A DNA stretch of 41,540 nucleotides from a virus, in the IMG/VR virus record IMGVR_UViG_3300017917_001969, positions 1 through 41,540 of that record, one strand, 5' to 3'. Positions 5,386 through 34,828 of the stretch are shown here, piece after piece (positions within the stretch are counted from its first letter, which is position 1; the number at the start of each line of letters is the position of its first letter). A program made the translations under genes and the position numbers. The notes under the pieces were generated by a model. It did no database searches. It worked only from the letters and a program-made list of their open reading frames with translations, and was not told the DNA's origin.

Positions 5386-5393
5386 TATTTATA
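5386..5393 (-). promoter_or_regulatory. Late promoter octamer TATAAATA
   Basis: An exact match on the minus strand to the T4 late promoter -10 element recognised by gp55. The predicted start lies about six bases on, near 5380, leaving a 14-base leader before the ATG at 5366. It overlaps the last codons of the giant gene, so the small structural genes downstream could be transcribed without the 11-kb gene. Confidence 0.6.
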
Positions 5394-8300
5394 ACGTTCC
5401 GGAACCTGCATTTCTTATGAATATATGCATAGGTGTTGTTCCTGTTGCACTCAGGCTTATTCCTGTATCATTATAGGCAAACCCTAAACCATTACCGTAA
5501 TCGATAAAATGTTCTAAGGTTGGTATCTTGTAAACCCAGCTTGCATCTGTCACTGTTGCACCAGAAGTATGTGTTGTTGCACTTGTTCCAAGAGTTCCTC
5601 TTGTGCAGTAACGTAATGTGTTACCTTCTATAGCACGATATTCGATGCGTTCGTTATCTATCCATACAACACCAACTTGACTTTCAATAGGTGTAGTTAA
5701 CGCTGCTGCCGACGCAACAGATATAGTTGTGGCAGACGCACTCAAGTTACTTGAAAGCGTTGTCTTTGCAGTGTCGACAACAACAGTGCTTTCTTCAATT
5801 TGATATGGAGAATAGTAAATCATATCAAAAGTTCTGGTATCGCTGGTTACAGTGCTGCCGCTGCTGTTTGTTTGAACACGTATACGTATATTTTCTGAGT
5901 AATCAACTGGATATAACTCTTCTCCCCAGTTATCTCTAACAACGGTGTTGAAGCCGTTTGCTTCGTATATATATTCGATTGCTGCATCTAACGTTGTAAA
6001 TGTTGAGCTGTCAGTATTAGTTACAACACTTGTAAATGTGCCGCCAGTTAAGATTTCGTCAAAGTCTTCGAAATCCTTAACACTATGATCGTTATAACGA
6101 AGCGTGATTTCCGCATTGTAATCTACTTCGGTTATTTCAACATCATTTTCGTCAATGTGTGTTACTGCACGGTCAATACTATGCAACTTAGTGTGGTAAG
6201 GTTTGATAGAGTTGAAGAACTCTTCGACCACTTCGGTTCCAGTTGGCTGATAATGTGTCGCATCAGTTAATACTGGATGTTCTATGCGAATTTTTGCATA
6301 GGTTGTTTTGAATGCAAAGTCATCTGTTGTGTTGTCTGTAACACAATGATATAAGCATTTAAACCATAATTTGTTATAGAATGACTTGTATTGACCCACA
6401 AACACTTTGTTTCTTAATAAATCAAATATTGCTTTAATAATAGGACTAGGCTCGGCATCAAAGCCGCTCATGTCAAACGGTCCAACGTCGAACCCATAAC
6501 CAAATTTTTCTAAATTCCAAAGCTCTTCACTTAACTGTATTGTGCCTTTTGATTTCCATTGAATTACCCATTCGTTGTTAACTAATTTGTAAATCTCTGG
6601 TCTATTTACACCGTCGCTGTGAATCGAAGTTTTAACATAAACAAGTGTTCCTTCTTCTGTTGAAATTGGGTCTTCGCCTAACACTGGAATCAACTCTTGT
6701 TTAGTATCTACATATAAATCTGGAAGAATAGTTTTATCAAATACGTTTAACAACGATCCGTCGCTGTTGTATTCTTTACGATACCAATCGGTATAAATCC
6801 AATACTTGTCCATGTCGTATTCGATAATTCCATCTGTTATGATTTCTTCGAAAACTGTGTCCCAGTCTGGCAATTCGTTAATTACACAAATTCTAGCTAA
6901 AAGATCATTTGCTGCATGAACAAAATTCTGTCTTGCAGTTTTTAAATCTCTCACTAAACTTTGATTTGGTCTAGTTAAGTGACCATATCTATTGAACGGA
7001 TGCAAGTTAAGATCCGGAAGAGGTTGCCCCATCCAGACATCTATGTCGTTTGCTGGTGTATCTGCCGGCAATTCGTATTCGTAAATACGTCTCCACCAAG
7101 TCATTGCAGTGTCCGCTGATGGTGTGTGGTTTAGGTTACTATTTTTTAAGCTAATGTAAAAACGACCGCTACCATCAACTACTACATCATCTATATTGTA
7201 TGTTGTTGACCCGCTGTAAGTTGTGTATGAATAACGTTTTACTGCATTGTTCCATCCAACAATGCTATCACGAATTTTTATGTGTAGTTGTTCTGGAATT
7301 AATTCTACAGGATCACTGTCATGTAATAACACCCATTCACTAAGTGGGAGCGCATCGCTTTCAACTATCTGATTAATTTGAATTACAGTATTATCGCTGA
7401 CAACTTTGTCTAGATTGTTAATCAACAAGTTACTAGACTCAGACGCTGCTACCCAAAGTTGTTCAAAACTATTCGGATTCTTTAAATAGTTCGATAGCTG
7501 CTTTGTATTGTAGACTCTATTACCGACAATATCTAATTTATTCTTAACCCAGAAATAATAAACAGTTTTAGATCTATTTTGCACAGGATCTACAACTGTT
7601 TGTTCTGACCAGTAGTAGACATACTCGTCGTTATTTTTAACTTTGTAAACTTCTCCGGTAACACGTTTTCCATTAATGGTTGCATTAGCTTTTACTAACT
7701 GTTCCCATTGGTCTGGCAATACTGTGCTTTCGGTCCACTCGTAAATATCAACCGAAGCACCATCAAATAATCTGCCCCAGTTGTTTTGCTGGTAGTCAAT
7801 TGGTCCTTGTTCATAATCTAAATAGATTGCTGTATTTAGGTCCCACCAACGTAGTCCTAGTTGATCTGCACCCCAGGTTTTTCTCGATTCGTTACTTCCG
7901 TTAACACTATCAAAATTGTAAACTGCAAAATCTGCAGTGGTTGCAAAATCTATCTCATTGTCAATGAACCCAGGTAGTATACCTTTTGCAGGATCAAATG
8001 TTTCAATAGTAGTAATTAGTGTTTTATTGATCGCATCATATACCTTAACGTTTTCGATTAAATCGTTACGTGCTTGTGCGTTGCCTTCTCTAACTAGTTG
8101 CCAACTGCCGTTATGGCCGGTGACTGTAGAGAAGCTACCATAAAACTTGTAAACACCCGATACCGGATCAGTGTCACTTATTCTATCAACAAATGCATAT
8201 ATCGGTCTTGTTGTAGTATTTTGTCTATAACCAGCAAAGTTATAGTAATACATGTCTGCCGCATTTGTAGAATTGTAGTTAGCTAGTAATTCTTGGTATG

Positions 8301-11300
8301 ATGAGAATCTTACATTTCTAATAGGGTAAACGTTCCCTACGTTTCCTTCTTTGTTAATGTAAACATCGATAAAGAATTTGTTATCATTGTTAGCATCAAT
8401 ACCTGTGACACGGTGTATGCCATCAATACTAGGTTCGGTATTACTTCCTCTAACTAATACAAAGTCTCCTACTTGTAAACTATGAGCCTGTGCAGCGCCA
8501 GATGGTGTTGCAATAGAAAGTTGTGCGTCATCTGCTGCATCTATACCAGCACAAGCACGAGTGATATACCATCCCATGTCCATTGTCTGATATACTGCAA
8601 AGCCGACATCGCTGTCAATTTGAGAACTTGTTATTTCATCTGCTTTCCATTTTGCAATCCATATACTGAATACATTAGGATCGTTATCCATTCTGCGGAA
8701 TATTACGTTTCCGTCAACGATTGCCTCAAATATATTGCTGACTGTAGTTTGTGTTGCAGCATAAGATTGTGCAGTGAATCCTAAATCACTGTTAGCTGTT
8801 CCTGCGCCGATTGTTAATGTAGAGTTTGTGCTTGTTAACTTAACTCTGTTATTACTATTAGTAGCTCTTACACCTGATATATTTGCCAAATTGATTTGGG
8901 TTACTACATCATTTATGTAACTACTAATATTAACTGTGGTTATGGTTGATGTGGCTGCTGTAACACCAGTTGTCAGACCGATGACACTATTTGCAGTGCC
9001 ATTACCTATATATAGTGAACTATTTGTGCTAGATATAGTGAGTAATATACCACTCGGTGCAAGTGCAGCCGCTGTTATTCCATTTACTCCTGCAGCATTA
9101 ATTTGTGCTATTACTTGTGAAATAGACAAGTTAGGAGTAGTGGTTGTTGTAGAACTACTACTGATATATGTTCCTGCATTGAGACCTACGTCGGCGTTTG
9201 CAGTTGCACTAGCAATAATTAAAGTAAATTGTGTCGCTGGAGTTGCTGTAGTTTTTGTTAGTCGCAATCTTCCTGAACTATTTGATGCTGTGACATTTGG
9301 TATACTTGTGCTATTGATTCTGTTTACGATTTCTGTTATAGTATATGTAAGATATGTTGTTCCAGAAATAGTAGCAACCACAGTTGATACAGTAAATGCA
9401 GTTGTAGTGTTTGCTGTCAGCCAGTTTGTAATATCATCAGTATATGTTCCTGCAGCCATTAATGTTTGTGTAGATGTAATATCTCCAGCAGCAACAGTTT
9501 CAGATCCTGCAATAACATTCGCAGTGTTATATGTATTATTTGTATAGTTGTTTATTAGTGTAATGTCACTGTCGAGCAGTGCCTCAACTTGCGCTTGGTA
9601 GCTAGGTGCGGATGCAATTTCGCTTAACAGTAGACTTATGTTTATTCCTGCAACGCTGCCGCTAAAATAACTTGCTAAGAATGTAGCCCACGATCCAGTG
9701 TATGCTGTTCTTAGATTTTCTATTGCACTGATTCTTGCGTTTGCTGCTGATGTTTTTGCACCAGATGTGTTGTTTATTACCCATCCATTGAATGCATTTT
9801 CAAATGCAGCTCGTGCAGTGATGTTGGTTGTAGTACCTACAGTTTCGTTAAACAATACGTCAACACCATCTATTGTTAACTTTTCAGTTGCGCTGCCTGT
9901 AAATGATGGATTGATAACATCGCCAGTTACAACAATATTATTATAAGTTGTCGATGTTACTACGTTATTGAATACAATAGTTTGTGCTGTAGAAGAGGTA
10001 GCACCTAATACTAACGTAGATCCGTGAGTAACAACGTTAGAGCTTCCGATGTTATTTGTTCCAGTAACGGTTACTGTAGTAGTGGTAGTTGATGTTGTTG
10101 AATTATTAAACGTAATAGTATTACCGTCTAATATCAGTGTTCTGCCATTTGCAACAATAGGAAGTGAAATTGTTCCTGTGACAATAATAGGATCGTTTGG
10201 AGTTGATAATCCGGTGCTACTGTTAGTGTCCACCATTTCCCACACACGACCTTGATAGATAACACGATCTCCGTATTTGTATGAAGTTTTATTATCCCAC
10301 TGTTTGATATCTTGCCATCCGCCGCTAAAATCGTAATAATTGTTTTCTTGCTCTGGGAACATTGCAAACGCAGAATAATCTAATACACGATAGTCTGTCT
10401 CAGTAGTTAAAGGTGTTCCAGAAGTAATAAAGTCGTTTTTATACGGACCTTCTTTTCCTAGTGTGTCGTATGTGAATACCTTAGGTAATCTTGTTTGAAA
10501 ATTATTACCAACAGAACCTGTAACTAGTAAATTACTAGCAGGTGTAATATCAATATAAACATCGCTTAATGCATCAGTTTCATCTGTGTCTTTAAGTCTT
10601 ATTACTTGAGGACTTGTTAAGACCATATCTTTGGTAACGTTAAATTCAACAGTATCACGTGATCTGATATCACCAAAGTCTGCAGTTCTTATTGCCCATT
10701 CTTCGAATAGCTTTACATCTGCTTGTGTTCCGAATATCGAAGTATTTCTCAAGAACGCATTTAACGCATACTTTGTTCCTTTGTATTTTCCTATACCTTT
10801 GACAAATTCAAATACAGTATCATCATCAAGCGTTGTATGTTGAGCCCATGAAGGAGTATTATATCCTATATTTGATCTTGCAGAATTTTTTATCGATGCG
10901 TTTACGATTTTACTTCCAACATCATACACCTGATCTATGTCTAACACAGTTCTATCAAAGTTATTGTAGATAGTGTTGTTATCAACAATATATCCCGGAG
11001 CGTATAGTTTTCCGTTCCAGTCTTTTGTTCTGCTACCTGTCCATTTGATTCTTTTGTGCAACTGCCCTAATGCCGGATTATAAATCACATCGTCAAACCC
11101 TGTGTAGTTGTCAAATACTATAACATGTTCTAGTTCGACCGAATACATTCTTATACCGTATAATGTTAAATCTGACGACTTAGGTGTAATTTTAGTAAGA
11201 GCATCTGATTTTTCTAAGAGTTGTCTCTCGACTATGACCTTGTTCGGCAGCACTTGTCTGCCATTTTGATCGATTAGATTGTAAACGCCGTCATACTTGT

Positions 11301-14300
11301 TTTGTAGATTGTCAAAATAGCCAGTTTTGCCTTCAGATATTTCAACCGAAACATCTGATGGGATAATATTGATAATACTACCGATAGCTGGAGATTCTTC
11401 TGCCCACGATAAGAATGTAGTTGCAGCGGCATCCCAATTTGGGACCCACCCAAATGTATTCAAATAGTGACCGTAACCTCTGATAATATCATAAACATCT
11501 TGTTCGTTACTTAGAACTGTGTTATATTCTAATCTAGTAACGTTATCGGTAAACTCTTTATATTTTATAATATTGCTGTTACCCACTGGGATAATGGTTT
11601 TTCTGCTGTTATACGCTACAGGATTGTATTCTAGATACATTTTGCTATTATCATATCCTGATATCATATAGCCTTCGTCAGTAAGTGTTATTTTTATTGC
11701 ACCGTAGAATGTGTCAGACTTAGGTTGACTTTTGTAAAGAGAAACTGAATAGTTTTCTTCTGGTATTGTTGCTTTACCTTTATCTTGACTGCTGTCTAAT
11801 ACAAATCGTTGGTTTGCTTTGTTAACAAATCCTCCTAGTTTAACTACAGGATTGTATGTTGCTGTTTCAAACTTTTCTTGTATATCGTCGATATTGTTTG
11901 TATTAAAGAATGCAAATTCGATAATAGCGTTGCTTAATCCATTATAATATTTTCTGATGTTCGACGACAACAGTGCTTCGAATGTTGCTTCTTGTGTAAT
12001 AGTTGCAGTATTATCAGTTGCAATTATAGTAGGTTTACTTTGATAATTGCTACCGGGATTAGTAATAGTCACTGCAATGATACTACCGTTTCTAACGATA
12101 GCTTCTGCAGTAGCGCCACTTCCAAAATTGCCGTAAATTTCTATACTGGTATTATTTGTATAGCCAGCACCACCGTTTCTTACGGTTATAAGCTCTATAA
12201 TACTGTCGTCGTATTTTTTGTAACTTAATTTTGGTTCTTTGTTATTACCTATTAAACCAGTATCTTCAAATAATACTTGTGGAGTGGCTACCGACGGATG
12301 ATAATCGAACTTTCTATTGTTACTGTCAAAATAACTGTTAAGCAGCCATAGAGGTCTCAATCTTAATAATCCCAAGGCACGGCTTATGTTATATTCAGGA
12401 CTACGTCTCCAGCGTTTCTCTACAGGCCCCCAATCGCCATAAACGAAGTCTTTTTGTTTTTCTGTTAATGTAGGTGCTGAAACTAATCCTGCTGTTACAG
12501 GCCCATTTAATACACCTGCGGCAGTGACTAGTGTGTTTGCAGTCCAATCATATGCAGAATAGCAATAAGTTATATCATAACGTTTATCTGATTCTGCAGG
12601 ACTATTCCAATGTCCTGTTTTTAGTGCCTCAATTAATGCAGAACGTTTTGCGTCATTGCCGCCATTTGCAGTGCTTAACCATGTGTAATATGTATCCCAC
12701 CACGATGGCTTTTGTCTGTGACCTAGCATTTCCCATGGATGTGTATGCGGACGATCTGTATTGAAGTAATAATGGTATATACCTTTCCAGCCGCCTATCC
12801 CAGTTCCAACACTACTATAATTCCAAGTAAATTCATTTAGCGGATCAAAATAACCTGCATCATTCAATGATGAAATGTTATTTCTAACTTTCCAACTATT
12901 AAATTCACTCTCCATAGCTGCATTTAATTCGTCCCATGTATAAGGAGATTTTCTGTTAGCAGTAGGCATGCCTTCTAAATAGTCGATTACATTATTGTAA
13001 TCTCCTGTTAAGTTGTTGAATATTCTGGTCTCGATTTCCCATATTGCAGCACCTTCAATATCGAAATTAACAGAATCTCTATTAACAATGTCGCTATTGA
13101 ACAATACGTGGATAGAGCCATCGTGACATATTATTGCATCGCTACTGCTAATGCCGTCGCCTTCTATATCAAAGTTTGCAAGTATTTGTGGGTAGTAAGG
13201 TTTAGTTAACCCTAATTTAACTGCACTCGGCGGCATGAAGCTAACGCTGTCGATAGGGAACCATCTGATTAATACTTTAACTCTGCCATTAACATCTGCT
13301 GTAAACGAGTCAGATATATTAATTTCTTTTTTATTATCAAACGAATAATCTAAACCTTTAACAAGCGGTCTCCAGTAAGGATTTGTGGCGCCGCCGTCAC
13401 GATCATAAACATACACCTGAACGTGGTTTTCTAAATCACTGTATGTGTTTACTGTTTCTGGTATTTCAAATACTTTATCGTCGCCGGTTACCCATACATG
13501 TTCGACTTCTTTAAAATCTCTGTATAGTAGCATATTGCTGTATGCAAACGGAGAGTTAACAGTTTTACCTAAGTTTAGTTGATCTAATGCCATATCAACT
13601 AACTTGTATAGCGGAACACTTATTGGTTGACTAGCATGTAACTGTATTGTTTTACGGATGAGTTGTTGTCTAAATTTAGCATAGCTGTTTGAAACAAACT
13701 TCAAACTAGCAAACGGATTGGTAGCAGGATTATCTAGTGTCACAGCTAATAACTCTGTGCTAAACGGCTGCTGTCTAATTGTGCCGCCAAATTCATGAAT
13801 ACGTGGCAACGATATATAATTATTATCGCCAAAGTAATCGCCAACAAACCCAGGTATGTTAGACATTTGTGACTTAATGTGTGCTTGCAAATCGCCAAAT
13901 GTTGCACTTACAAGCCAATCATTTTGTGGGTTATAAACATGAGTGTCTGCGGTGTGGAAATTTCCCTGGTCAGATGTTAATATATCGTATGATGACCAAG
14001 AAATTTCGATCACAGTATCTAACGGGTATATATTTTCAACAGTGATTCGAGAACCAGATAATGTGTAATTAGTTGTATCGGCCCCGTTTATTTTAACTGT
14101 TAAGCTATTTGAAGCAGTGTTAGAATCCAAATAAATTATACCGTATACAGAGTTATCGGATACTAATCTATACTTAATATAATCAATTGAAATAGAACTG
14201 CTAATTTCAATTGATTTAGTATTATCTGCGATTGTTGTAATTGTTAACCCTGTAGATATTGCAGAACCATCTACATTTACTAATTCAAAATCAGTTATGT

Positions 14301-16455
14301 CGAACATTGTTTGAACAATATATGTGTTACCCTTGCTCATGAAAATAGCTGGGTTAACACCGTTAATTAGTTCAGGCTTGTCACGTTCGTTTAATGTGTT
14401 TTCACTGTAAACTTTTAGATTTCCATTGTTACTTAATTTAAATCTAAACTTGTCATCTAAGTTAATATCAGTTGTTCCTATGTCAAAGACGTGATCTCCG
14501 TTATCAGTGCTTTCGACAATATAACGAATATGCTTTTCGATAGGCTGATCGTTACGCAACTGTGCCCAGCCGTTGTTGTAGAAACCTGTAATTAGATTTT
14601 TGTAGTAATAGTATCCTTTAATTTCTTCTATATTAACTACATCGGTATCAGCTTGATACCCGGTATGTTCGTTAATAGTGTTATAATGATAGCGTTTTGC
14701 ACCAAGACCGAATTCAAATTCATAACCTGGATTATTGCCATAATCAACATATTTGGGAGCAAACCCTAAAGCGTTATCAACTACACCACTTGTTCTTGCA
14801 TAATCAAATATAGTATCTCCAGCAAAAGTAGTGTTAGGATAAGTTGTTAGATTTGACAATAATACTTGTGCATGATCGTAAAGATTAAACTTTGGAGCGT
14901 TACTTCTGAGGTCTTTTTGTTGACCATAAATCCAATTTGTGCCGTCCCAATACCATTCGCTTCCTGCATAAATTAAACTATCTGAAGAATCACCAAATAC
15001 ATTGTTATAACCTATTTTTACAACAACCTTATCGTATAGTGTGTAATTACTAGTGTTGTAAACTTCAGTCAGTGTGATGCTGCTGCCTACGCCGCCCACT
15101 CTGTATATTTTTTTATTATAAGTCGCTGTTGCATTTTTAGCAAACAGGATAGTATCTCCGTCAACTAATGCTTTAGAAGCAACCTCTCTCCAATAATCTC
15201 TGTTCTCAATGAATGTTGGATTTTTTCCACTAGTGTGAGTTTGTATACAGTCCCAGTAAGTAACGTTGCCGCTAACTGTTACTTTTACTTGATCTCCTTT
15301 ATTATACCCGACAGGATCCCATTCGTTGGTAATACTGTAAGATGCAAGGCTCCAAGCTGATTGACCTACTATCGCAGTTGCTGGGTCAGCAACAGAATCA
15401 AACATGTGTGTTACTGCAGTCAAATGTTGTTTGCCGTAGTTATATTTTTCTATGTTTCCACGAAACTCAATAATAGGACGTATTGCTCTGAAAGGTTCGA
15501 CAATATAATCGACCGGATCTTGGTCGTTGAAATTGCATATTGCAGTTGCAACGTCGTCTCTGATCCATGCGTTACTTCTTGCCCATGCACTTTGATCTAT
15601 ACTGTCTCTGCACTCGACTACATAATCCCTGACAATAATTCTGTCGTCTTGAATATCAATAGGAAGAGCATTATCTTCATTGCGTGTTAACGAATAGATA
15701 GTATTAGTAACAAATGTTGTTTCTGCAGCACTGTCATCATACTGTCTGATAAGTTTAATTCCGGTAGGTTGTCCGACACCTTCAACAATGTAAATATCGT
15801 TGACAGGATATGTGCCGTTACCAATGCAATTTGCGTTAAACGTTACTCTCATACCGTTACTAAATTCTAGTGTTTTTCCGTTAGCTAGAGTAGGAGTAGT
15901 ATAAGAAATTTGACCTACTACGTTTGCAATAGTAATAGGATCTCCTACAGTTGCGTTGATTTCACATACTGGTAAGAAATCTAATAACCAGAAATATCTA
16001 TGATAGTTAACAAACATATCATAGTTAATAGGAAGGTCAAGTGTATATGCAGGTTCGTTTAGTAATCTATTAGGCTGTTCAGTTGTAGCACCGCCGAATT
16101 TTAAGCCATTCATAATATCATCATACGATATTACATCTAAAATGTTTCCGTTGTCATCTTTATTGATAACACCCGGTATGAACTGGTATTGATCGCTAGT
16201 TCTGTTATCATCTAAATACAAATCGTCAACACTTATTCTGCTGTCTTCGTGTCCAAGATAATGGTTAATAGCTTGTAAACTACCGCTAGACATTAATTGA
16301 TCTAGTGTAGATTCTAAAAATTTCCTATTAACCGGAGTGCCAAAAATGTTAGGTAGTAAGTTTACTACACATCTTGCACCTACAAATTCGTTACTTTCAC
16401 CTGGTCTTGAAATAAGTGGTGCTACTGTAGGATTTGCTTTATAATTTTGACTCAT
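5389..16455 (-). CDS. Giant (3688-aa) tail or fibre structural protein
   Basis: One uninterrupted 11-kb frame, starting ATG at 16455 and overlapping the gp6 stop by four bases. It is beta-rich and modular. The N-terminus (MSQNYKANPTVAPLISRPGE) looks like a baseplate attachment region. Three aromatic modules resembling small carbohydrate-binding domains (pattern W...Y..GD.V.Y...) lie near residues 377, 2055 and 3082. A glycine-rich GAGYTNN...GSGATAEA unit is near 1423-1490. A long Thr/Ser/Asn-rich stretch covers about 2090-2570, including three similar units starting near 2371, 2445 and 2515. The C-terminus (about 3570-3688) resembles receptor-binding ends of other phage proteins (VVWIDNERIEYRAIEGNTL, then CTRGTLGTSA). 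It is probably the main host-contact or baseplate-peripheral protein. The exact role is inferred from position and composition. Confidence 0.75.
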   Translation of the reverse strand: MSQNYKANPTVAPLISRPGESNEFVGARCVVNLLPNIFGTPVNRKFLESTLDQLMSSGSLQAINHYLGHEDSRISVDDLYLDDNRTSDQYQFIPGVINKDDNGNILDVISYDDIMNGLKFGGATTEQPNRLLNEPAYTLDLPINYDMFVNYHRYFWLLDFLPVCEINATVGDPITIANVVGQISYTTPTLANGKTLEFSNGMRVTFNANCIGNGTYPVNDIYIVEGVGQPTGIKLIRQYDDSAAETTFVTNTIYSLTRNEDNALPIDIQDDRIIVRDYVVECRDSIDQSAWARSNAWIRDDVATAICNFNDQDPVDYIVEPFRAIRPIIEFRGNIEKYNYGKQHLTAVTHMFDSVADPATAIVGQSAWSLASYSITNEWDPVGYNKGDQVKVTVSGNVTYWDCIQTHTSGKNPTFIENRDYWREVASKALVDGDTILFAKNATATYNKKIYRVGGVGSSITLTEVYNTSNYTLYDKVVVKIGYNNVFGDSSDSLIYAGSEWYWDGTNWIYGQQKDLRSNAPKFNLYDHAQVLLSNLTTYPNTTFAGDTIFDYARTSGVVDNALGFAPKYVDYGNNPGYEFEFGLGAKRYHYNTINEHTGYQADTDVVNIEEIKGYYYYKNLITGFYNNGWAQLRNDQPIEKHIRYIVESTDNGDHVFDIGTTDINLDDKFRFKLSNNGNLKVYSENTLNERDKPELINGVNPAIFMSKGNTYIVQTMFDITDFELVNVDGSAISTGLTITTIADNTKSIEISSSISIDYIKYRLVSDNSVYGIIYLDSNTASNSLTVKINGADTTNYTLSGSRITVENIYPLDTVIEISWSSYDILTSDQGNFHTADTHVYNPQNDWLVSATFGDLQAHIKSQMSNIPGFVGDYFGDNNYISLPRIHEFGGTIRQQPFSTELLAVTLDNPATNPFASLKFVSNSYAKFRQQLIRKTIQLHASQPISVPLYKLVDMALDQLNLGKTVNSPFAYSNMLLYRDFKEVEHVWVTGDDKVFEIPETVNTYSDLENHVQVYVYDRDGGATNPYWRPLVKGLDYSFDNKKEINISDSFTADVNGRVKVLIRWFPIDSVSFMPPSAVKLGLTKPYYPQILANFDIEGDGISSSDAIICHDGSIHVLFNSDIVNRDSVNFDIEGAAIWEIETRIFNNLTGDYNNVIDYLEGMPTANRKSPYTWDELNAAMESEFNSWKVRNNISSLNDAGYFDPLNEFTWNYSSVGTGIGGWKGIYHYYFNTDRPHTHPWEMLGHRQKPSWWDTYYTWLSTANGGNDAKRSALIEALKTGHWNSPAESDKRYDITYCYSAYDWTANTLVTAAGVLNGPVTAGLVSAPTLTEKQKDFVYGDWGPVEKRWRRSPEYNISRALGLLRLRPLWLLNSYFDSNNRKFDYHPSVATPQVLFEDTGLIGNNKEPKLSYKKYDDSIIELITVRNGGAGYTNNTSIEIYGNFGSGATAEAIVRNGSIIAVTITNPGSNYQSKPTIIATDNTATITQEATFEALLSSNIRKYYNGLSNAIIEFAFFNTNNIDDIQEKFETATYNPVVKLGGFVNKANQRFVLDSSQDKGKATIPEENYSVSLYKSQPKSDTFYGAIKITLTDEGYMISGYDNSKMYLEYNPVAYNSRKTIIPVGNSNIIKYKEFTDNVTRLEYNTVLSNEQDVYDIIRGYGHYLNTFGWVPNWDAAATTFLSWAEESPAIGSIINIIPSDVSVEISEGKTGYFDNLQNKYDGVYNLIDQNGRQVLPNKVIVERQLLEKSDALTKITPKSSDLTLYGIRMYSVELEHVIVFDNYTGFDDVIYNPALGQLHKRIKWTGSRTKDWNGKLYAPGYIVDNNTIYNNFDRTVLDIDQVYDVGSKIVNASIKNSARSNIGYNTPSWAQHTTLDDDTVFEFVKGIGKYKGTKYALNAFLRNTSIFGTQADVKLFEEWAIRTADFGDIRSRDTVEFNVTKDMVLTSPQVIRLKDTDETDALSDVYIDITPASNLLVTGSVGNNFQTRLPKVFTYDTLGKEGPYKNDFITSGTPLTTETDYRVLDYSAFAMFPEQENNYYDFSGGWQDIKQWDNKTSYKYGDRVIYQGRVWEMVDTNSSTGLSTPNDPIIVTGTISLPIVANGRTLILDGNTITFNNSTTSTTTTTVTVTGTNNIGSSNVVTHGSTLVLGATSSTAQTIVFNNVVTSTTYNNIVVTGDVINPSFTGSATEKLTIDGVDVLFNETVGTTTNITARAAFENAFNGWVINNTSGAKTSAANARISAIENLRTAYTGSWATFLASYFSGSVAGINISLLLSEIASAPSYQAQVEALLDSDITLINNYTNNTYNTANVIAGSETVAAGDITSTQTLMAAGTYTDDITNWLTANTTTAFTVSTVVATISGTTYLTYTITEIVNRINSTSIPNVTASNSSGRLRLTKTTATPATQFTLIIASATANADVGLNAGTYISSSSTTTTTPNLSISQVIAQINAAGVNGITAAALAPSGILLTISSTNSSLYIGNGTANSVIGLTTGVTAATSTITTVNISSYINDVVTQINLANISGVRATNSNNRVKLTSTNSTLTIGAGTANSDLGFTAQSYAATQTTVSNIFEAIVDGNVIFRRMDNDPNVFSIWIAKWKADEITSSQIDSDVGFAVYQTMDMGWYITRACAGIDAADDAQLSIATPSGAAQAHSLQVGDFVLVRGSNTEPSIDGIHRVTGIDANNDNKFFIDVYINKEGNVGNVYPIRNVRFSSYQELLANYNSTNAADMYYYNFAGYRQNTTTRPIYAFVDRISDTDPVSGVYKFYGSFSTVTGHNGSWQLVREGNAQARNDLIENVKVYDAINKTLITTIETFDPAKGILPGFIDNEIDFATTADFAVYNFDSVNGSNESRKTWGADQLGLRWWDLNTAIYLDYEQGPIDYQQNNWGRLFDGASVDIYEWTESTVLPDQWEQLVKANATINGKRVTGEVYKVKNNDEYVYYWSEQTVVDPVQNRSKTVYYFWVKNKLDIVGNRVYNTKQLSNYLKNPNSFEQLWVAASESSNLLINNLDKVVSDNTVIQINQIVESDALPLSEWVLLHDSDPVELIPEQLHIKIRDSIVGWNNAVKRYSYTTYSGSTTYNIDDVVVDGSGRFYISLKNSNLNHTPSADTAMTWWRRIYEYELPADTPANDIDVWMGQPLPDLNLHPFNRYGHLTRPNQSLVRDLKTARQNFVHAANDLLARICVINELPDWDTVFEEIITDGIIEYDMDKYWIYTDWYRKEYNSDGSLLNVFDKTILPDLYVDTKQELIPVLGEDPISTEEGTLVYVKTSIHSDGVNRPEIYKLVNNEWVIQWKSKGTIQLSEELWNLEKFGYGFDVGPFDMSGFDAEPSPIIKAIFDLLRNKVFVGQYKSFYNKLWFKCLYHCVTDNTTDDFAFKTTYAKIRIEHPVLTDATHYQPTGTEVVEEFFNSIKPYHTKLHSIDRAVTHIDENDVEITEVDYNAEITLRYNDHSVKDFEDFDEILTGGTFTSVVTNTDSSTFTTLDAAIEYIYEANGFNTVVRDNWGEELYPVDYSENIRIRVQTNSSGSTVTSDTRTFDMIYYSPYQIEESTVVVDTAKTTLSSNLSASATTISVASAAALTTPIESQVGVVWIDNERIEYRAIEGNTLRYCTRGTLGTSATTHTSGATVTDASWVYKIPTLEHFIDYGNGLGFAYNDTGISLSATGTTPMHIFIRNAGSGTL
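8740..9350 (-). repeat. Three tandem 65-75-aa repeat units inside the giant protein
   Basis: Three units in the giant protein share the pattern [IV]-x-x-[IV]-[VI]-x-x-[IQ]-N, then Gly/Asn-V-x-A-x-N, then L-x-L/I-T, then T-L-x-I, then A-N-S/A-x-[IL]-G-[LF]. They start near residues 2371 (ITEIVNRINS), 2445 (ISQVIAQINA) and 2515 (INDVVTQINL). The pattern is like the IN motif of flagellar hook-associated proteins, a surface-exposed beta unit. Coordinates are approximate because unit edges are not sharp. Confidence 0.55.
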
Positions 16456-30185: not shown

Positions 30186-30444
30186 TTCTTCAGTTTTAAA
30201 CAATTACAACTACAACGGATACAGCAACATTTCATCTATGGGAGATACTGTAACTGTTACTACTACCTCGCCGTCATACAGCAATCATGTGTATACAGTA
30301 GACACCGGTTTAGTGGGAGGCTACAGTTTAAAATCGGCAGCAGGAATATACGAACCTGAAAAGCGTCATCATCTTAAAGATGAAGGCAGACTACCACACG
30401 ATGTATGGGCGTTGATGTTTAATAACGGCGTATTGAATGACTAA
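30175..30444 (+). CDS. Small protein of unknown function, copy B of a shared motif
   Basis: An 89-aa protein with AAGGG before its ATG. The N-terminal 50 residues are Ser/Thr/Asn-rich (MTINSSVLNNYNYNGYSN, then TVTVTTTSPSYSN). The C-terminal 25 carry the motif shared with the preceding 57-aa protein (EGRLPHDVWALMF). Its stop overlaps the start of the phosphatase gene by eight bases. Function is unknown. The overlap chain gp46-A-B-phosphatase suggests coordinated translation. Confidence 0.65.
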   Translation: MTINSSVLNNYNYNGYSNISSMGDTVTVTTTSPSYSNHVYTVDTGLVGGYSLKSAAGIYEPEKRHHLKDEGRLPHDVWALMFNNGVLND

Positions 30445-31132
30445 TTTTGTCTTTGATGTCGACGGAACATTAACAGATTCTCGAAAATCAATTGACACAA
30501 CATTTAAAGACTTTATGCTAGATTTTACAAGGATGCATACTTGTTATATTTGCACAGGGTCTGACAGGCAAAAGACAATAGAACAAATAGGCGAAGATCT
30601 TACTAATCAATTTGAATTGGCATTTCACTGCAGCGGCAATTTAATTTATAAAAGCAACATCGAAGTATATAAAAATCTCTGGGCATTAACTAACAAAGAA
30701 ATAGAATTCTTATATCAGGCATTAGACAACATATATTATAGCGAAAAAACTGGCAATCACGTTGAGGAAAGATTAGGCACTGTTAATTTTAGTATTGTAG
30801 GCAGAAATGCGTCACACGATCAACGTCAACGATACGTAAAATGGGATAATGAAACAAAGGCTCGTGAAATTATAGCTGAACAATTTAATACTTTATTCGA
30901 AGAATCGCAGGCAGTTGTAGGCGGTGAAACTAGTATTGATATCTTTAAAAAAGGCTGTGATAAATCTCAAATAAAAAAATACATAGAAGGTGAAACAATT
31001 TACTTTGGTGATAGATGTTATCCTGGCGGTAACGATTATGCTATAAGTATGTTGTGCGACAAGTTCTACCAGATTGATAACGGTTGGAAACAAACATTTT
31101 CTATTCTTAAAGAATACCATAATAAACACTAG
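30437..31132 (+). CDS. Phosphomannomutase-like HAD phosphatase
   Basis: A 231-aa HAD protein. Motif I is FDVDGTLT (D7, D9), with T40-G-S in CTGSDRQKTIEQIG. The segment VNFSIVGRNAS...QRQRY, then IDIFKKGCDKSQI with the motif III Lys, and YFGDRCYPGGNDY with motif IV Asp, match the eukaryote-type phosphomannomutase/Cof-like subfamily rather than general HAD enzymes. The family interconverts mannose-6-phosphate and mannose-1-phosphate, the precursor of GDP-mannose. A phosphatase role is also possible. It lies in the gp55-gp46 operon, not beside the glycosyltransferase genes. Confidence 0.7.
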   Translation: MTNFVFDVDGTLTDSRKSIDTTFKDFMLDFTRMHTCYICTGSDRQKTIEQIGEDLTNQFELAFHCSGNLIYKSNIEVYKNLWALTNKEIEFLYQALDNIYYSEKTGNHVEERLGTVNFSIVGRNASHDQRQRYVKWDNETKAREIIAEQFNTLFEESQAVVGGETSIDIFKKGCDKSQIKKYIEGETIYFGDRCYPGGNDYAISMLCDKFYQIDNGWKQTFSILKEYHNKH

Positions 31133-31165: not shown

Positions 31166-31606
31166 ATGATTTGGACGTATAAAGGTAATACTGTTGAAGA
31201 AATTCCAGAAGGCTATATGGGCTTTGTTTACCTTATCACAAATCTAACAAATGGCAAGCGTTACATTGGCAAAAAGCTAGCAAATTTTAAAAAATCTAGA
31301 CCACCTTTAAAAGGCAAAAAGAATCGTAGGCGATATACTGTAGAAAGTGATTGGCGTGACTATTGGGGCTCCAGTGACAAACTACAAGCAGACGTTTTAG
31401 AATTAGGCACAGAAAATTTTACAAGAGAAATATTATATTTTTGCACCAGTAAGGCTGAATTAAGTTACTTAGAGGCTCGTGAACAGTTTGAACGTAAAGT
31501 TCTAGAAACTGATGATTATTATAATGGCATCATTGATGTCCGTGTTGGCAAATCTAAGGCTCTATTAGAATCTCTGCAAAATCAAAAAGACATACCCTCC
31601 ATATAA
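31166..31606 (+). CDS. GIY-YIG family endonuclease
   Basis: A 146-aa protein with the GIY-YIG core at the N-terminus: GFVYLITNLTNGKRYIGKK (about 19-37). A basic Arg/Lys-rich stretch (KKSRPPLKGKKNRRRY) follows, then a Glu in the expected helix (SYLEAREQF) and an Asn near the end (YYNGI), as in active enzymes of this fold. There is no separate DNA-binding domain beyond it, so it resembles short free-standing phage nucleases. It is the last gene of the rightward operon and is followed immediately by the GC-rich, structured intergenic region. Confidence 0.75.
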   Translation: MIWTYKGNTVEEIPEGYMGFVYLITNLTNGKRYIGKKLANFKKSRPPLKGKKNRRRYTVESDWRDYWGSSDKLQADVLELGTENFTREILYFCTSKAELSYLEAREQFERKVLETDDYYNGIIDVRVGKSKALLESLQNQKDIPSI

Positions 31607-31900
31607 AAGCATTGAGGAGGCGGCACTAGGTGTTTAGCCAACGGATCTTGCTGAGGGAAACAAACCAAATGAGTGGGCTCTCCTGTGCCATTGGATCCCA
31701 CGGATAGCCGATACTGTAGACGTTATTGCAGTCGGTGTTTCTGCGTTGTAAGCAGTGTGTAAAGGGGTATCGCACAACCGCCTCTGCCTGTATAAGGTTG
31801 CACTATAACGTTGCGCTAGTGGACGATGGGTAATACCTTGTTCGGTCGCATTTAGCTGTAACAAGCTAAGTGCGACTGAAACTCCAGGTAATATATAATC
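31607..31900 (+). ncRNA. Candidate structured RNA in the convergent intergenic region
   Basis: There is no credible gene here. By hand count GC is about 50% over 31621-31860, against about 33% in the following 60 bases. A nested fold is possible: 31617-31623 with 31778-31784 (GAGGCGG/CCGCCTC) closes a junction containing 31673-31677/31697-31701 (GTGGG/CCCAC), and 31709-31714/31767-31772 (CGATAC/GTATCG) over a CTGC/GCAG hairpin at 31741-31755. Then come 31792-31798/31835-31841 around CACTA/TAGTG, and a 13-bp hairpin 31845-31857/31864-31876 with loop GTAACA. I do not recognise tRNA, tmRNA, RNase P or group I intron features. The strand is not settled. It could also be the 3' end of the gp26 transcript. 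Confidence 0.55.
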
Positions 31901-31933
31901 ATAAAAGATTATAAAAAAAATAATTCAATCGAG

Positions 31934-31990
31934 CGATTAAGCGAAGATTGATGATTAGCGTAGCTAATCGAATAGTATATAAAATACTAT
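31934..31990. other. Small inverted repeats at the end of the gp26 transcript
   Basis: Two short perfect hairpins lie between the RNA candidate and the leftward gp26 cassette: GATTAGC/GCTAATC with a three-base loop (31953-31969), and ATAGTAT/ATACTAT with loop ATAAA (31972-31990) touching the stop of the small ORF. Neither is followed by a clear T-run on either strand, so a classical terminator is not certain. They may protect or end the convergent transcripts. Confidence 0.4.
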
Positions 31991-32178
31991 CAGAACATAG
32001 TTGTTGATATACCTTTAGCTTTATCTAATGCTTGTTTTTCTTTTTCATTTTTATCAATTATTGTTTGTGTGATTTCTTTAAGATAACTTAAAGGAACATT
32101 CCAAAGTTCTGATATTTTAAATGCTCCGCTAGAATATAAGACAATGTCGAATACTTCTTTACGTAGTCCTTTAGCCAT
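31990..32178 (-). CDS. gp51-like assembly domain, probably made only as a frameshift fusion to gp26
   Basis: A 62-aa frame (MAKGLRKEVFDIVLYSSGAF) that resembles the small protein found behind gp26 in marine T4-like phages, with the pattern Y-S-x-G-x-F...L-x-x-[MV]-P. The ATG at 32178 has no proper ribosome binding site. The same frame stays open upstream through HSEIAATNDVAKVILNYEK to the nine-T run in gp26, with the first stop at 32253. So the natural product is probably a -1 frameshift fusion of 276 gp26 residues and 82 residues from this frame (358 aa). In T4, gp26 and gp51 act in baseplate hub assembly. The gp51 name is by analogy only. Confidence 0.55.
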   Translation of the reverse strand: MAKGLRKEVFDIVLYSSGAFKISELWNVPLSYLKEITQTIIDKNEKEKQALDKAKGISTTMF

Positions 32179-32202
32179 CTTTTCATAATTTAAGATAACT
32201 TT

Positions 32203-32250
32203 AGCAACATCATTTGTTGCTGCTATTTCGGAGTGAAAAAAAAAGTAGGG
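32203..32250 (-). promoter_or_regulatory. Probable -1 programmed frameshift site (T9 run and hairpin)
   Basis: Nine T residues on the minus strand (32244-32236) lie in gp26 codons ACT TTT TTT TTC. A one-base backward slip enters the frame of the 31990-32178 ORF. That frame has a stop at 32253-32251 and gp26 ends at 32225-32223, so the shift can only happen in a 26-base window (32250-32225) that contains the run. A perfect 7-bp hairpin, AGCAACA/TGTTGCT with loop AATGA (32221-32203), starts 14 bases after the run. RNA polymerase slippage on T9 is an alternative mechanism. Confidence 0.65.
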
Positions 32251-33065
32251 TTAAATTCAACACTTGCATCGAATGTATGATTGCATAACTCGTTGCTGCA
32301 TGTGAATGTATGCGTTCTTGGGATACCGCTTACATTTAAATGTTCGCCGGCTTTTTTAATTCTTTCGTTACTTTTTAAATCTAAATTTTGAACCCATTGA
32401 AGTATATCTTTGTATTCGGTAACTACTTTCCCGTCTGGTGTTGTTACTGACTCGATCATATCTGCAATTACTGCTAGGTTTGCAGCCGCAATGCGATTTA
32501 AACTATTTTCGACTAATTTTTTAGAATTTTCAAAATCATTTTTAGCTTCTAACTCGACTATAGTTTTTCTAAGTCTAGCTACTTCCACACTTTCTATACT
32601 CGATGCTGTCATGACTGCTAGTGTGTTTGGTTTTAATTTAAGTTTTAGATTTTTAATCTCAATTTCAACATCATCGTTTATAGTTTTTATTTTACTCAAC
32701 ATTGTTGGTATGTCTATTGAGTAGTCTGTTATTTCATTACAGTTTGGACATTTAACTGAAACATCCATGTCTTTACCTTGCGTAACTGCTCGTGTTGCAA
32801 CTAGAATTGCATCAACGTCGGGTATAGCAACATCGTAAGGGTTTTCGATATCAGGTGCTACACTTTGAATAACAACAAATAGAGATTCACCGTTATATAA
32901 ACTGTCTGGGACCTTTAATATCATTTCATCTTTTGTAGTCATAGGCATTATGCCTATTTCTCCTGACACAGATAATTTTGGTTTTGTTTTATACCATCTG
33001 CCACCGGATGGCAATTTAATGTATATTTCCTTGTTTCTGTAATAATTCTCTAACGGATTGCTCAT
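32223..33065 (-). CDS. 26: Baseplate hub assembly protein gp26
   Basis: A 280-aa protein of the T4 gp26 (T4 baseplate) family: IYIKLPSGGRWYKTKPK, then IMPMTTKDEMILKVPDSLYNG and a VDAILVATRAVTQG segment. It has a zinc-ribbon-like set of cysteines: C106-P-N-C109 and C256...C261 near the end. T4 gp26 (208 aa) is shorter. The gene is transcribed away from the tape-measure gene from the inward-facing late promoters at 33076-33102. Its last codons contain the T9 run described in the frameshift entry, giving either this 280-aa form or a longer fusion. Confidence 0.85.
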   Translation of the reverse strand: MSNPLENYYRNKEIYIKLPSGGRWYKTKPKLSVSGEIGIMPMTTKDEMILKVPDSLYNGESLFVVIQSVAPDIENPYDVAIPDVDAILVATRAVTQGKDMDVSVKCPNCNEITDYSIDIPTMLSKIKTINDDVEIEIKNLKLKLKPNTLAVMTASSIESVEVARLRKTIVELEAKNDFENSKKLVENSLNRIAAANLAVIADMIESVTTPDGKVVTEYKDILQWVQNLDLKSNERIKKAGEHLNVSGIPRTHTFTCSNELCNHTFDASVEFNPTFFFTPK

Positions 33066-33121: not shown

Positions 33122-34828
33122 ATGGCAATAATTAATATACCAGTCGGGGGTGTTGCAGTCGGTATTGAAATACCTGATTTTGCAATGGAATATACTTCCC
33201 AGCAAATGTTGTCTGAATTGAAACAACAAACTGCTATACTTCAAACAGGAACACAAGCGCAAGTAACAGCGTTAAACAACCTGTCGGGCGGCGGAACGTC
33301 TGGAAGATTATCATCGGCAGCGGCATCTAATGCAAACAATAATCAAGTTTCCGGAATCAATCGTCTTTTTACTGGTATAGAAGCTGGGTTTCAACAATTA
33401 ATAGCTAATGCAGGATTACAAGAAGCAGTTGAGAAAATGTTTGCTGGTTTTGGTATGGAACGTTTTGGGGCAGCGTTAGGGACTGTTGTAGGAATAGTAG
33501 AACAAACGGCCGAAAGTATGGGAAAACTCGGAAGAATTGGTGCTAATGCAGGAATGTCCTTGATTGATTTAAGAGATAAAGCGGCAAAAGTTGGTTTAGG
33601 ACTAGAACAAGTAACTGCATTTGTTAGCACATTCGGGACAACAATTACAAGTTTAGGTAAAAATTCTACTGAGGGAACACACAGACTACTTGAGTTTGTC
33701 AGTGAGCTACGAACAGCTACAAAAGATGTTGGTTATTTTGGCATGTCTTCTACAGAGATGACACAGTATATGATAGACGAGTTAGAAATACGTCGACAGT
33801 TAAATGATACTATGACAATGCAAAATCTTAATGCTCAACAAGTGTCAACTGCATTAAGAGAACAATATATGCAGCAAATGGCAGTAGCAAGATTAACAGG
33901 TCAAGACGTTCACGCTCGGATAAGAGCAAGAATGGATGCTGACCGAGACGTTAATTATGCGGCTGCAATGGCAGGCCTAGATGAACGACAAAAAAGAGCT
34001 GCTGATGCAGCAGCATCAGCATTATCTGAACTAGGCCCAGCTGTGCAAGAAATGATGCGAAAAGCAATGACAAATCAGTTTTTAGGTATGCCTGCGCCTG
34101 TAAATAACGAAGGATTTGCAGAATTTGCAGGCGTTACTCAAGGTATAACAGGTCTAGATATGATTGGCCTGGTTCAACAAGTTGTAGCTGCTTCTAATTC
34201 AGGAGATGCTGAAATGGCTCAGGCATTGATAAGTCAGATGGCTATAGGGTTTGACAACATGACTCAAGAACAAAAAAGACAATTAGGGGTTCTTAGTGCA
34301 GGCGGCGGAGTAGAAGGTGCTACTATGGCATTAACTGTAGCGATGCAAGCTACACCTCCTGTGGTAGATGCAATGAACGCATCACTTAGTGAACTCATTG
34401 ACGCATTCAGAACAGCAGCATCAGAAATAAGTTCAGCAGGTAATATGAGGATAGCAGGATTTAAACAAGATTCAGAGGTAATGATACAACAATTACAAGC
34501 ATCTTTGTTCAATACTATATTAGGTGCTACCGGAACTAGTGCGTTGAATGAAACACAAAGTATGGACGCATTAATGAAAGTAATGGAACTGGGAGTAAAC
34601 TCTACTGCAGGGATGCAAGAAGTAACCCGGCAAATAGGTGAAATAATGTCAGTGGTGCGTGAAGGTGCAACTACGGCGTTGGAAGAATTAACACCTGATG
34701 AAATTGGTCAAGGTGTCAGGAATGCATTGAGTGATTTTTTTGCACAAACATCACAAAATATTGCAGATAACAGAGCTATAATGGCAGCACTACTAGATGA
34801 GATACGCCGTAATGGTATATTCCAATAA
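33122..34828 (+). CDS. Probable tape-measure protein (gp29-like)
   Basis: A 568-aa, largely helical protein, rich in Ala, Gln, Met and Gly, with long heptad-like helices and a short hydrophobic helix near 115-127 (FGAALGTVVGIVE). Its length is close to T4 gp29 (590 aa), which sets tail length and forms part of the hub. It lies next to the gp26 chaperone-type cassette, as tape-measure genes usually do, though on the other strand. Tape-measure sequences diverge fast, so the call rests on size, composition and context. Confidence 0.6.
   Translation: MAIINIPVGGVAVGIEIPDFAMEYTSQQMLSELKQQTAILQTGTQAQVTALNNLSGGGTSGRLSSAAASNANNNQVSGINRLFTGIEAGFQQLIANAGLQEAVEKMFAGFGMERFGAALGTVVGIVEQTAESMGKLGRIGANAGMSLIDLRDKAAKVGLGLEQVTAFVSTFGTTITSLGKNSTEGTHRLLEFVSELRTATKDVGYFGMSSTEMTQYMIDELEIRRQLNDTMTMQNLNAQQVSTALREQYMQQMAVARLTGQDVHARIRARMDADRDVNYAAAMAGLDERQKRAADAAASALSELGPAVQEMMRKAMTNQFLGMPAPVNNEGFAEFAGVTQGITGLDMIGLVQQVVAASNSGDAEMAQALISQMAIGFDNMTQEQKRQLGVLSAGGGVEGATMALTVAMQATPPVVDAMNASLSELIDAFRTAASEISSAGNMRIAGFKQDSEVMIQQLQASLFNTILGATGTSALNETQSMDALMKVMELGVNSTAGMQEVTRQIGEIMSVVREGATTALEELTPDEIGQGVRNALSDFFAQTSQNIADNRAIMAALLDEIRRNGIFQ

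Follow-up and report, generated by a model that had tools for sequence, protein, structure and literature searches.

A conserved slip site at the 3' end of gp26 points to a -1 frameshift in the putative tail assembly chaperone gene of a marine T4-like phage

The closest described system is that of the phage lambda proteins gpG and gpGT, whose -1 frameshift is conserved in long-tailed phages, with T4 as a named exception (Xu, Hendrix and Duda 2004, as described in PMC5009743). The extended form, GT, links the tape measure protein and the tail-tube protein (PMC5009743). T4 gp26 and gp51 are listed as hub assembly chaperones in a review (PMC3004832). Both an arrangement of one short and one long gene without frameshifting (Vladimirov 2022, as cited by PRFect, PMC10885494) and poly-T slip signals in the chaperone genes (Vladimirov 2022, as cited in the phage Adele paper, PMC12846349) were reported for T4-like phages. 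As far as these citations describe them, the tail assembly chaperone (TAC) genes of the 2022 work belong to PF12322, the protein family shared with the gp26 described here, and the frameshift idea for T4-like TAC genes was already published, at least in part, in that year. A -1 frameshift on the T-rich sequence GTTTTT was proposed for the locus of phage Adele (Vandenendeviridae / Andersonviridae). The Adele locus is like the present one in that the extension is open in all relatives and routinely annotated as a separate gene, but it differs in its phage families and its shorter run (PMC12846349). What is added here, beside this partly published idea, is the conservation of the site across a marine lineage, jumbo phages, cyanophages and KVP40- and CC2-like phages, together with a T9 variant of the site and the nesting of T4's two-gene arrangement among frameshifting lineages.

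The DNA analysed, referred to below as the window, comprises positions 1 to 41,540 of the IMG/VR record IMGVR_UViG_3300017917_001969 and derives from a marine T4-like phage. gp26 is located on the minus strand (33065..32223) and its zero-frame product of 280 aa ends in PTFFFTPK*. The product was assigned to PF12322 (T4_baseplate) by Pfam with an E-value of 1.6e-14 and a score of 54.6 bits, above the curated cut-off of 24.5, and the match covered most of the domain (residues 23-269). A match to PHROG 150, baseplate hub, was also obtained. A tblastn search of phage records with gp26 matched 62 of them, mostly jumbo myophages, and most alignments ran to about residue 277, which is as far as the T run described below. 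T4 gp26 and T4 gp51 each match PF12322 end to end, with about 48 residues beyond the domain in gp51. Unlike lambda gpG and gpGT, the N domain of gp26 is a PF12322 domain with two conserved cysteine-pair motifs. The AlphaFold model of gp26 had a pLDDT of 91. In a comparison with PDB chains, its fifth-ranking match was the HK97 tail assembly chaperone 2OB9 (rmsd 4.8 over 98 of 107 residues) with a Z of 7.2, in a range where unrelated folds can score. The other high-ranking chains mostly aligned over little beyond two helices, and 2OB9 aligned nearly end to end. The predicted structure may resemble this protein of relevant function, at a middling Z. The best reading is that gp26 is the putative tail assembly chaperone gene of this phage, with the 280-aa product as the proposed short form (TAC-N).

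The 3' end of gp26 reads ACT TTT TTT TTC ACT CCG AAA TAG in the zero frame and contains the slip site TTTTTTTTTC (32235..32244, minus strand). Its nine T residues (32244..32236) are the longest homopolymer of the window. The heptamer T TTT TTC at 32241-32235 is of the X XXY YYZ type in the zero frame, as used in -1 programmed frameshifting, and lies inside the overlap of two open frames. On the same strand, the -1 frame is open from stop to stop over 31990..32250 and ends at the TGA at 31992-31990. Both frames are open together over 28 nt only, stop included, and the T9 run lies there. The extension read from the slip point is FFHSEIAATNDVAKVILNYEKMAKGLRKEVF...STTMF (FFHSEIAATND...TTMF), 83 aa in length. 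The sequence details in the initial annotation, namely the ACT TTT TTT TTC end of gp26, the T9 run in the shared open stretch and the long -1 frame, were correct, with the overlap being 28 nt and the extension 83 aa. The observation of a T9 run combined with an open -1 frame is real and far beyond chance.

Loci for comparison were gathered from isolates and from more than 200 further loci, some of them overlapping, by way of the adjoining portal gene and a cyanophage gp26. gp26 and its 3' end were readable in 204 viral loci, giving 120 representatives at most 85% identical to one another. The initial annotation had proposed an alignment of gp26/gp51 loci from related phages as a check. In the present comparison the T run was found at the homologous 3' site in all 120 representatives, and the -1 frame was open for 58-87 codons past the run in every one of them; the +1 frame was usually closed within about 10 codons. 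The run was T9C in 33 representatives, T6C in 81, T7C in three, T7A in two and T5C in one. T9C was present in 33 of 33 distinct members of the lineage to which the window belongs and was confined to that lineage, the other 87 representatives having T5-T7. The gp26 proteins of the T9C lineage are mostly only 40-50% identical to that of the window, with the T9C still invariant. Outside this lineage T6C was the usual form, in cyanophages, KVP40- and CC2-like phages and jumbo phages such as RaK2 and 121Q. The zero-frame tail of gp26 after the run varied from 2 to about 31 codons and was not conserved, and the extension began at the slip in every representative, which makes the slip site, and not the stop codon, the conserved landmark. 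A more distant gp26 homologue (31% identity; L003:3700-3900), left out of the 120 counted, has an extension-like frame that opens right after an FF pair.

The phase of the site was conserved as well. The Phe codons were TTT TTC in 85 representatives, TTT TTT TTC in 33 and TTT TTT in two. The codon preceding them ended in T in 119 of the 120, though the residue varied (Ser, Ala, Thr, Asp, His, Asn and others). From background codon usage, the chance of this wobble T was about 10^-12 for the T9 group and about 10^-19 for the rest, values which are overstated since the sequences are related; the counts, coming from sequences that are not independent, likewise overstate significance. An in-phase T6C within the last 40 nt was found in none of 519 other genes of at least 150 aa from the same loci. 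The claim that a -1 frameshift gives a G/GT-like pair of gp26 and gp26 plus extension is strongly supported by this comparison, in which site, phase and open extension were conserved in 120/120 and the wobble T in 119/120, against 0/519 in the control. Long homopolymers are prone to indel errors, and a true run of T8 or T10 would turn gp26 and the extension into one continuous gene or leave two unrelated frames. The probability of such a sequencing or assembly error is negligible, as 79 T9C and 112 T6C loci, obtained from many different samples and isolates, are in agreement and runs as short as T6 are not prone to errors.

The extension showed the substitution pattern of a coding sequence in the -1 frame. 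Differences between the window and a 95%-identical relative (L002) fell 9/1/17 on codon positions 1/2/3, and ten pairs pooled gave 147/67/218. Judged by these differences, selection acts on the extension as a protein read in the -1 frame. The model of the extension was a helical domain with a pLDDT of 88. A fold search with the extension alone returned only helix-hairpin look-alikes such as bHLH domains, and its viral matches were insignificant; a tape measure chaperone and gp51 of phage ZZ1 were among them.

In the public annotations of most relatives a distinct open reading frame is called at this position, as if the extension were a separate small gp51-like gene with its own start codon, translated by reinitiation after the gp26 stop. 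The first in-frame start codon of the extension in the window is an ATG at 32178-32176 (minus strand), which is codon 22 and has no Shine-Dalgarno motif, and this counts against separate initiation. The first 15 extension codons were free of ATG in 32 of the 33 T9 representatives, and a Shine-Dalgarno motif preceded the first ATG in none of the 33 and the extension ATG in two of the other 87. The initial annotation was therefore right in describing this ATG as lacking a ribosome binding site, in the window as in the rest of the T9 lineage. It was also right that the downstream frame is protein-like ahead of its own ATG, as the coding type of conservation begins at the slip site, ahead of every start codon. 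An ATG overlaps or touches the gp26 stop in Atu_ph07, Phosso, 121Q and a KVP40-like phage, which fits reinitiation, but the slip site is retained in these phages too; in them a free C domain may also arise by reinitiation. An ordinary separate gp51 gene was rejected as an explanation of the extension for want of a start and a Shine-Dalgarno motif, and the broader reading of a separately initiated product is very improbable. Shortened runs, GTTTTTC and T5C, were seen at L023 (Vibrio phage SD25, 3001-3195) and L129 (112-342). The gp26 stop of Vibrio phage SD25 overlaps an ATG (TAATG), and this phage may represent a transition between frameshifting and reinitiation.

The mechanism is most likely -1 slippage of the ribosome on T TTT TTC, of the kind known from lambda G/GT. 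About nine T's is the length at which bacterial polymerases slip well. RNA polymerase could instead add one U, or skip two, on the T9 run, so that some of the mRNAs would be fused in frame. The exact length of nine in 33 of 33 members of the lineage agrees with such transcriptional slippage, as does the lack of a conserved strong downstream RNA structure in the T9 lineage. Against it, the C after the T's leaves the heptamer T TTT TTC intact, and 87 representatives keep both junction and extension with T5-T7. These runs are too short for efficient polymerase slippage, which makes the mechanism of the family most simply ribosomal, and transcriptional slippage in place of ribosomal slippage is improbable. 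It is unlikely, though conceivable, that in the marine lineage an ancestral ribosomal T6C was lengthened to the invariant T9C and that the long chaperone is produced, wholly or in part, through slippage of the host RNA polymerase.

Downstream of the slip site, a 7-bp stem-loop AGCAACA-AATGA-TGTTGCT is present on the minus strand (32203..32221; arms 32221-32215 and 32209-32203), beginning 13 nt after the slip codon. The hairpin had been put forward as part of the frameshift signal and was indeed present and well folded in the window (z of -3.9). However, it was broken in the 95%-identical relative L002, and the mean z in the T9 lineage was -0.83, with no conserved strong downstream hairpin. Its support is weaker than first annotated. 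As a conserved stimulator in the T9 lineage the hairpin was rejected; it is possibly an unconserved stimulator in the window. In cyanophages a GGAGGG was observed 10-16 nt upstream of the T6C run, conserved in L019, L020 and about 57 cyanophage loci (L180-L259) and absent from the T9 lineage of the window. It encodes Glu-Gly, with Glu written as GAG in 52 cases and GAA in seven, compared with a background of 81 to 138. Internal Shine-Dalgarno sequences stimulate -1 shifting in dnaX, and the cyanophage GGAGGG looks like such a stimulator of frameshifting.

The initial annotation had named the extension as gp51-like, and correctly so, but gave no argument for it. Profile comparisons with hhalign matched the extension of the window's lineage to the jumbo phage extension (E 5.5e-20), the jumbo extension to the gp51 C-terminus (E 3e-5), the cyanophage extension to the gp51 C-terminus (E 8e-12) and T4 gp26 to gp51 (E 2e-17). 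Matches to phrog_634 (baseplate hub assembly catalyst) are shared by T4 gp51 with the cyanophage and KVP40-like extensions. A direct profile match between the extension of the window's lineage and gp51 was not significant (probability 1.7%), and the link is transitive via these intermediates. Through this chain of profiles, the extension corresponds to the C-terminal domain of T4 gp51, and T4 gp26 and gp51 are, by their profiles, paralogues that represent a short and a long form. T4 gene order was considered as support and rejected: gene 51 of T4 has full length and diverges from gene 26, which means that the extension cannot be equated with gene 51.

Short and long forms are two genes in T4, 44RR, EC-F2 and an Acinetobacter phage. 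The window and most other sampled T4-like lineages, in contrast, have one gene with a slip site. In a tree of the PF12322 domain, T4-type gp26 and gp51 grouped together (99/96) and were nested inside the frameshifting lineages; the tree was rooted at its midpoint, and the long branches of 44RR and EC-F2 gp26 are unsurely placed. The simplest reading of the tree is that a frameshifting gene was duplicated once toward T4, with one copy retaining the short form and the long, fused form retained by the other.

A tape measure gene had been expected next to gp26. The adjoining gene (33122-34828, plus strand, 568 aa) has the expected place and length, lying between gp26 and the portal gene in the window and in most jumbo relatives, and its length across relatives is 563-1074 aa. 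It is divergent from gp26 and is a candidate tape measure gene by position and length only, its product having no detectable similarity to T4 gp29, so this point of the initial annotation is weaker than it was put there. Neither T4 gp29 nor the gene that follows gp51 in cyanophages gave a match to the tape measure candidate, and homology to them was rejected. Compared with lambda G/GT, the locus differs in having a T run for its slip site and in the orientation of the candidate tape measure gene, which is divergent and not downstream.

Some further features of the window were recorded. About 380 nt (31607-31989) without a convincing gene, tRNA or Rfam match lie between the end of the gp26 extension and a SegE-like GIY-YIG gene; Rfam and tRNA scans of the whole window gave no matches. 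Near the gp26 side of this stretch, inverted repeats followed by T8 on the minus strand are conserved in L002 and are likely a terminator. The gene beyond it (31166-31606), not far from the chaperone gene, encodes a SegE-like GIY-YIG homing endonuclease (PF19835, E 9.5e-35); T4 likewise has segE near gene 26. A phosphomannomutase-like HAD hydrolase (PF03332, E 1.6e-26) is encoded at 30437-31132, which is unusual beside virion genes. A single open reading frame of 3688 aa occupies 5389-16455 on the minus strand.

Taken as a tail assembly chaperone gene, gp26 very probably yields a G/GT-like pair by a -1 frameshift, with a gp51-type C-terminal domain on the long form; a short and a C-terminally extended form from one gene are indicated by sequence and comparison. 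Most ribosomes would stop at 32223 and give the short form. A fraction would slip one base back on T TTT TTC in the T9 run and translate about 80 further codons of the -1 frame, yielding a long form whose C-terminal domain has its counterpart in T4 gp51. If the pair works like lambda G/GT, coating of the tape measure protein would fall to the short form, and recruitment of tail-tube subunits to the long form. The occurrence of slippage, its ribosomal nature, its efficiency and the chaperone role are what we infer from these comparisons.

Few features of long-tailed phages are as well conserved as the G/GT frameshift, and the T4 exception looks local. The T4-type two-gene arrangement forms one clade within slip-site lineages, which suggests that gp26 and gp51 of T4 came from a duplicated frameshifting gene. 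If polymerase slippage did come to serve the marine lineage, the passage from T6C to T9C would be a change of recoding mechanism inside one gene family, in which the T4 branch would have swapped recoding for gene duplication. The small 'gp51' or 'hypothetical protein' beside gp26, annotated separately or missed in most of these genomes, is probably the C-terminal part of a fusion.
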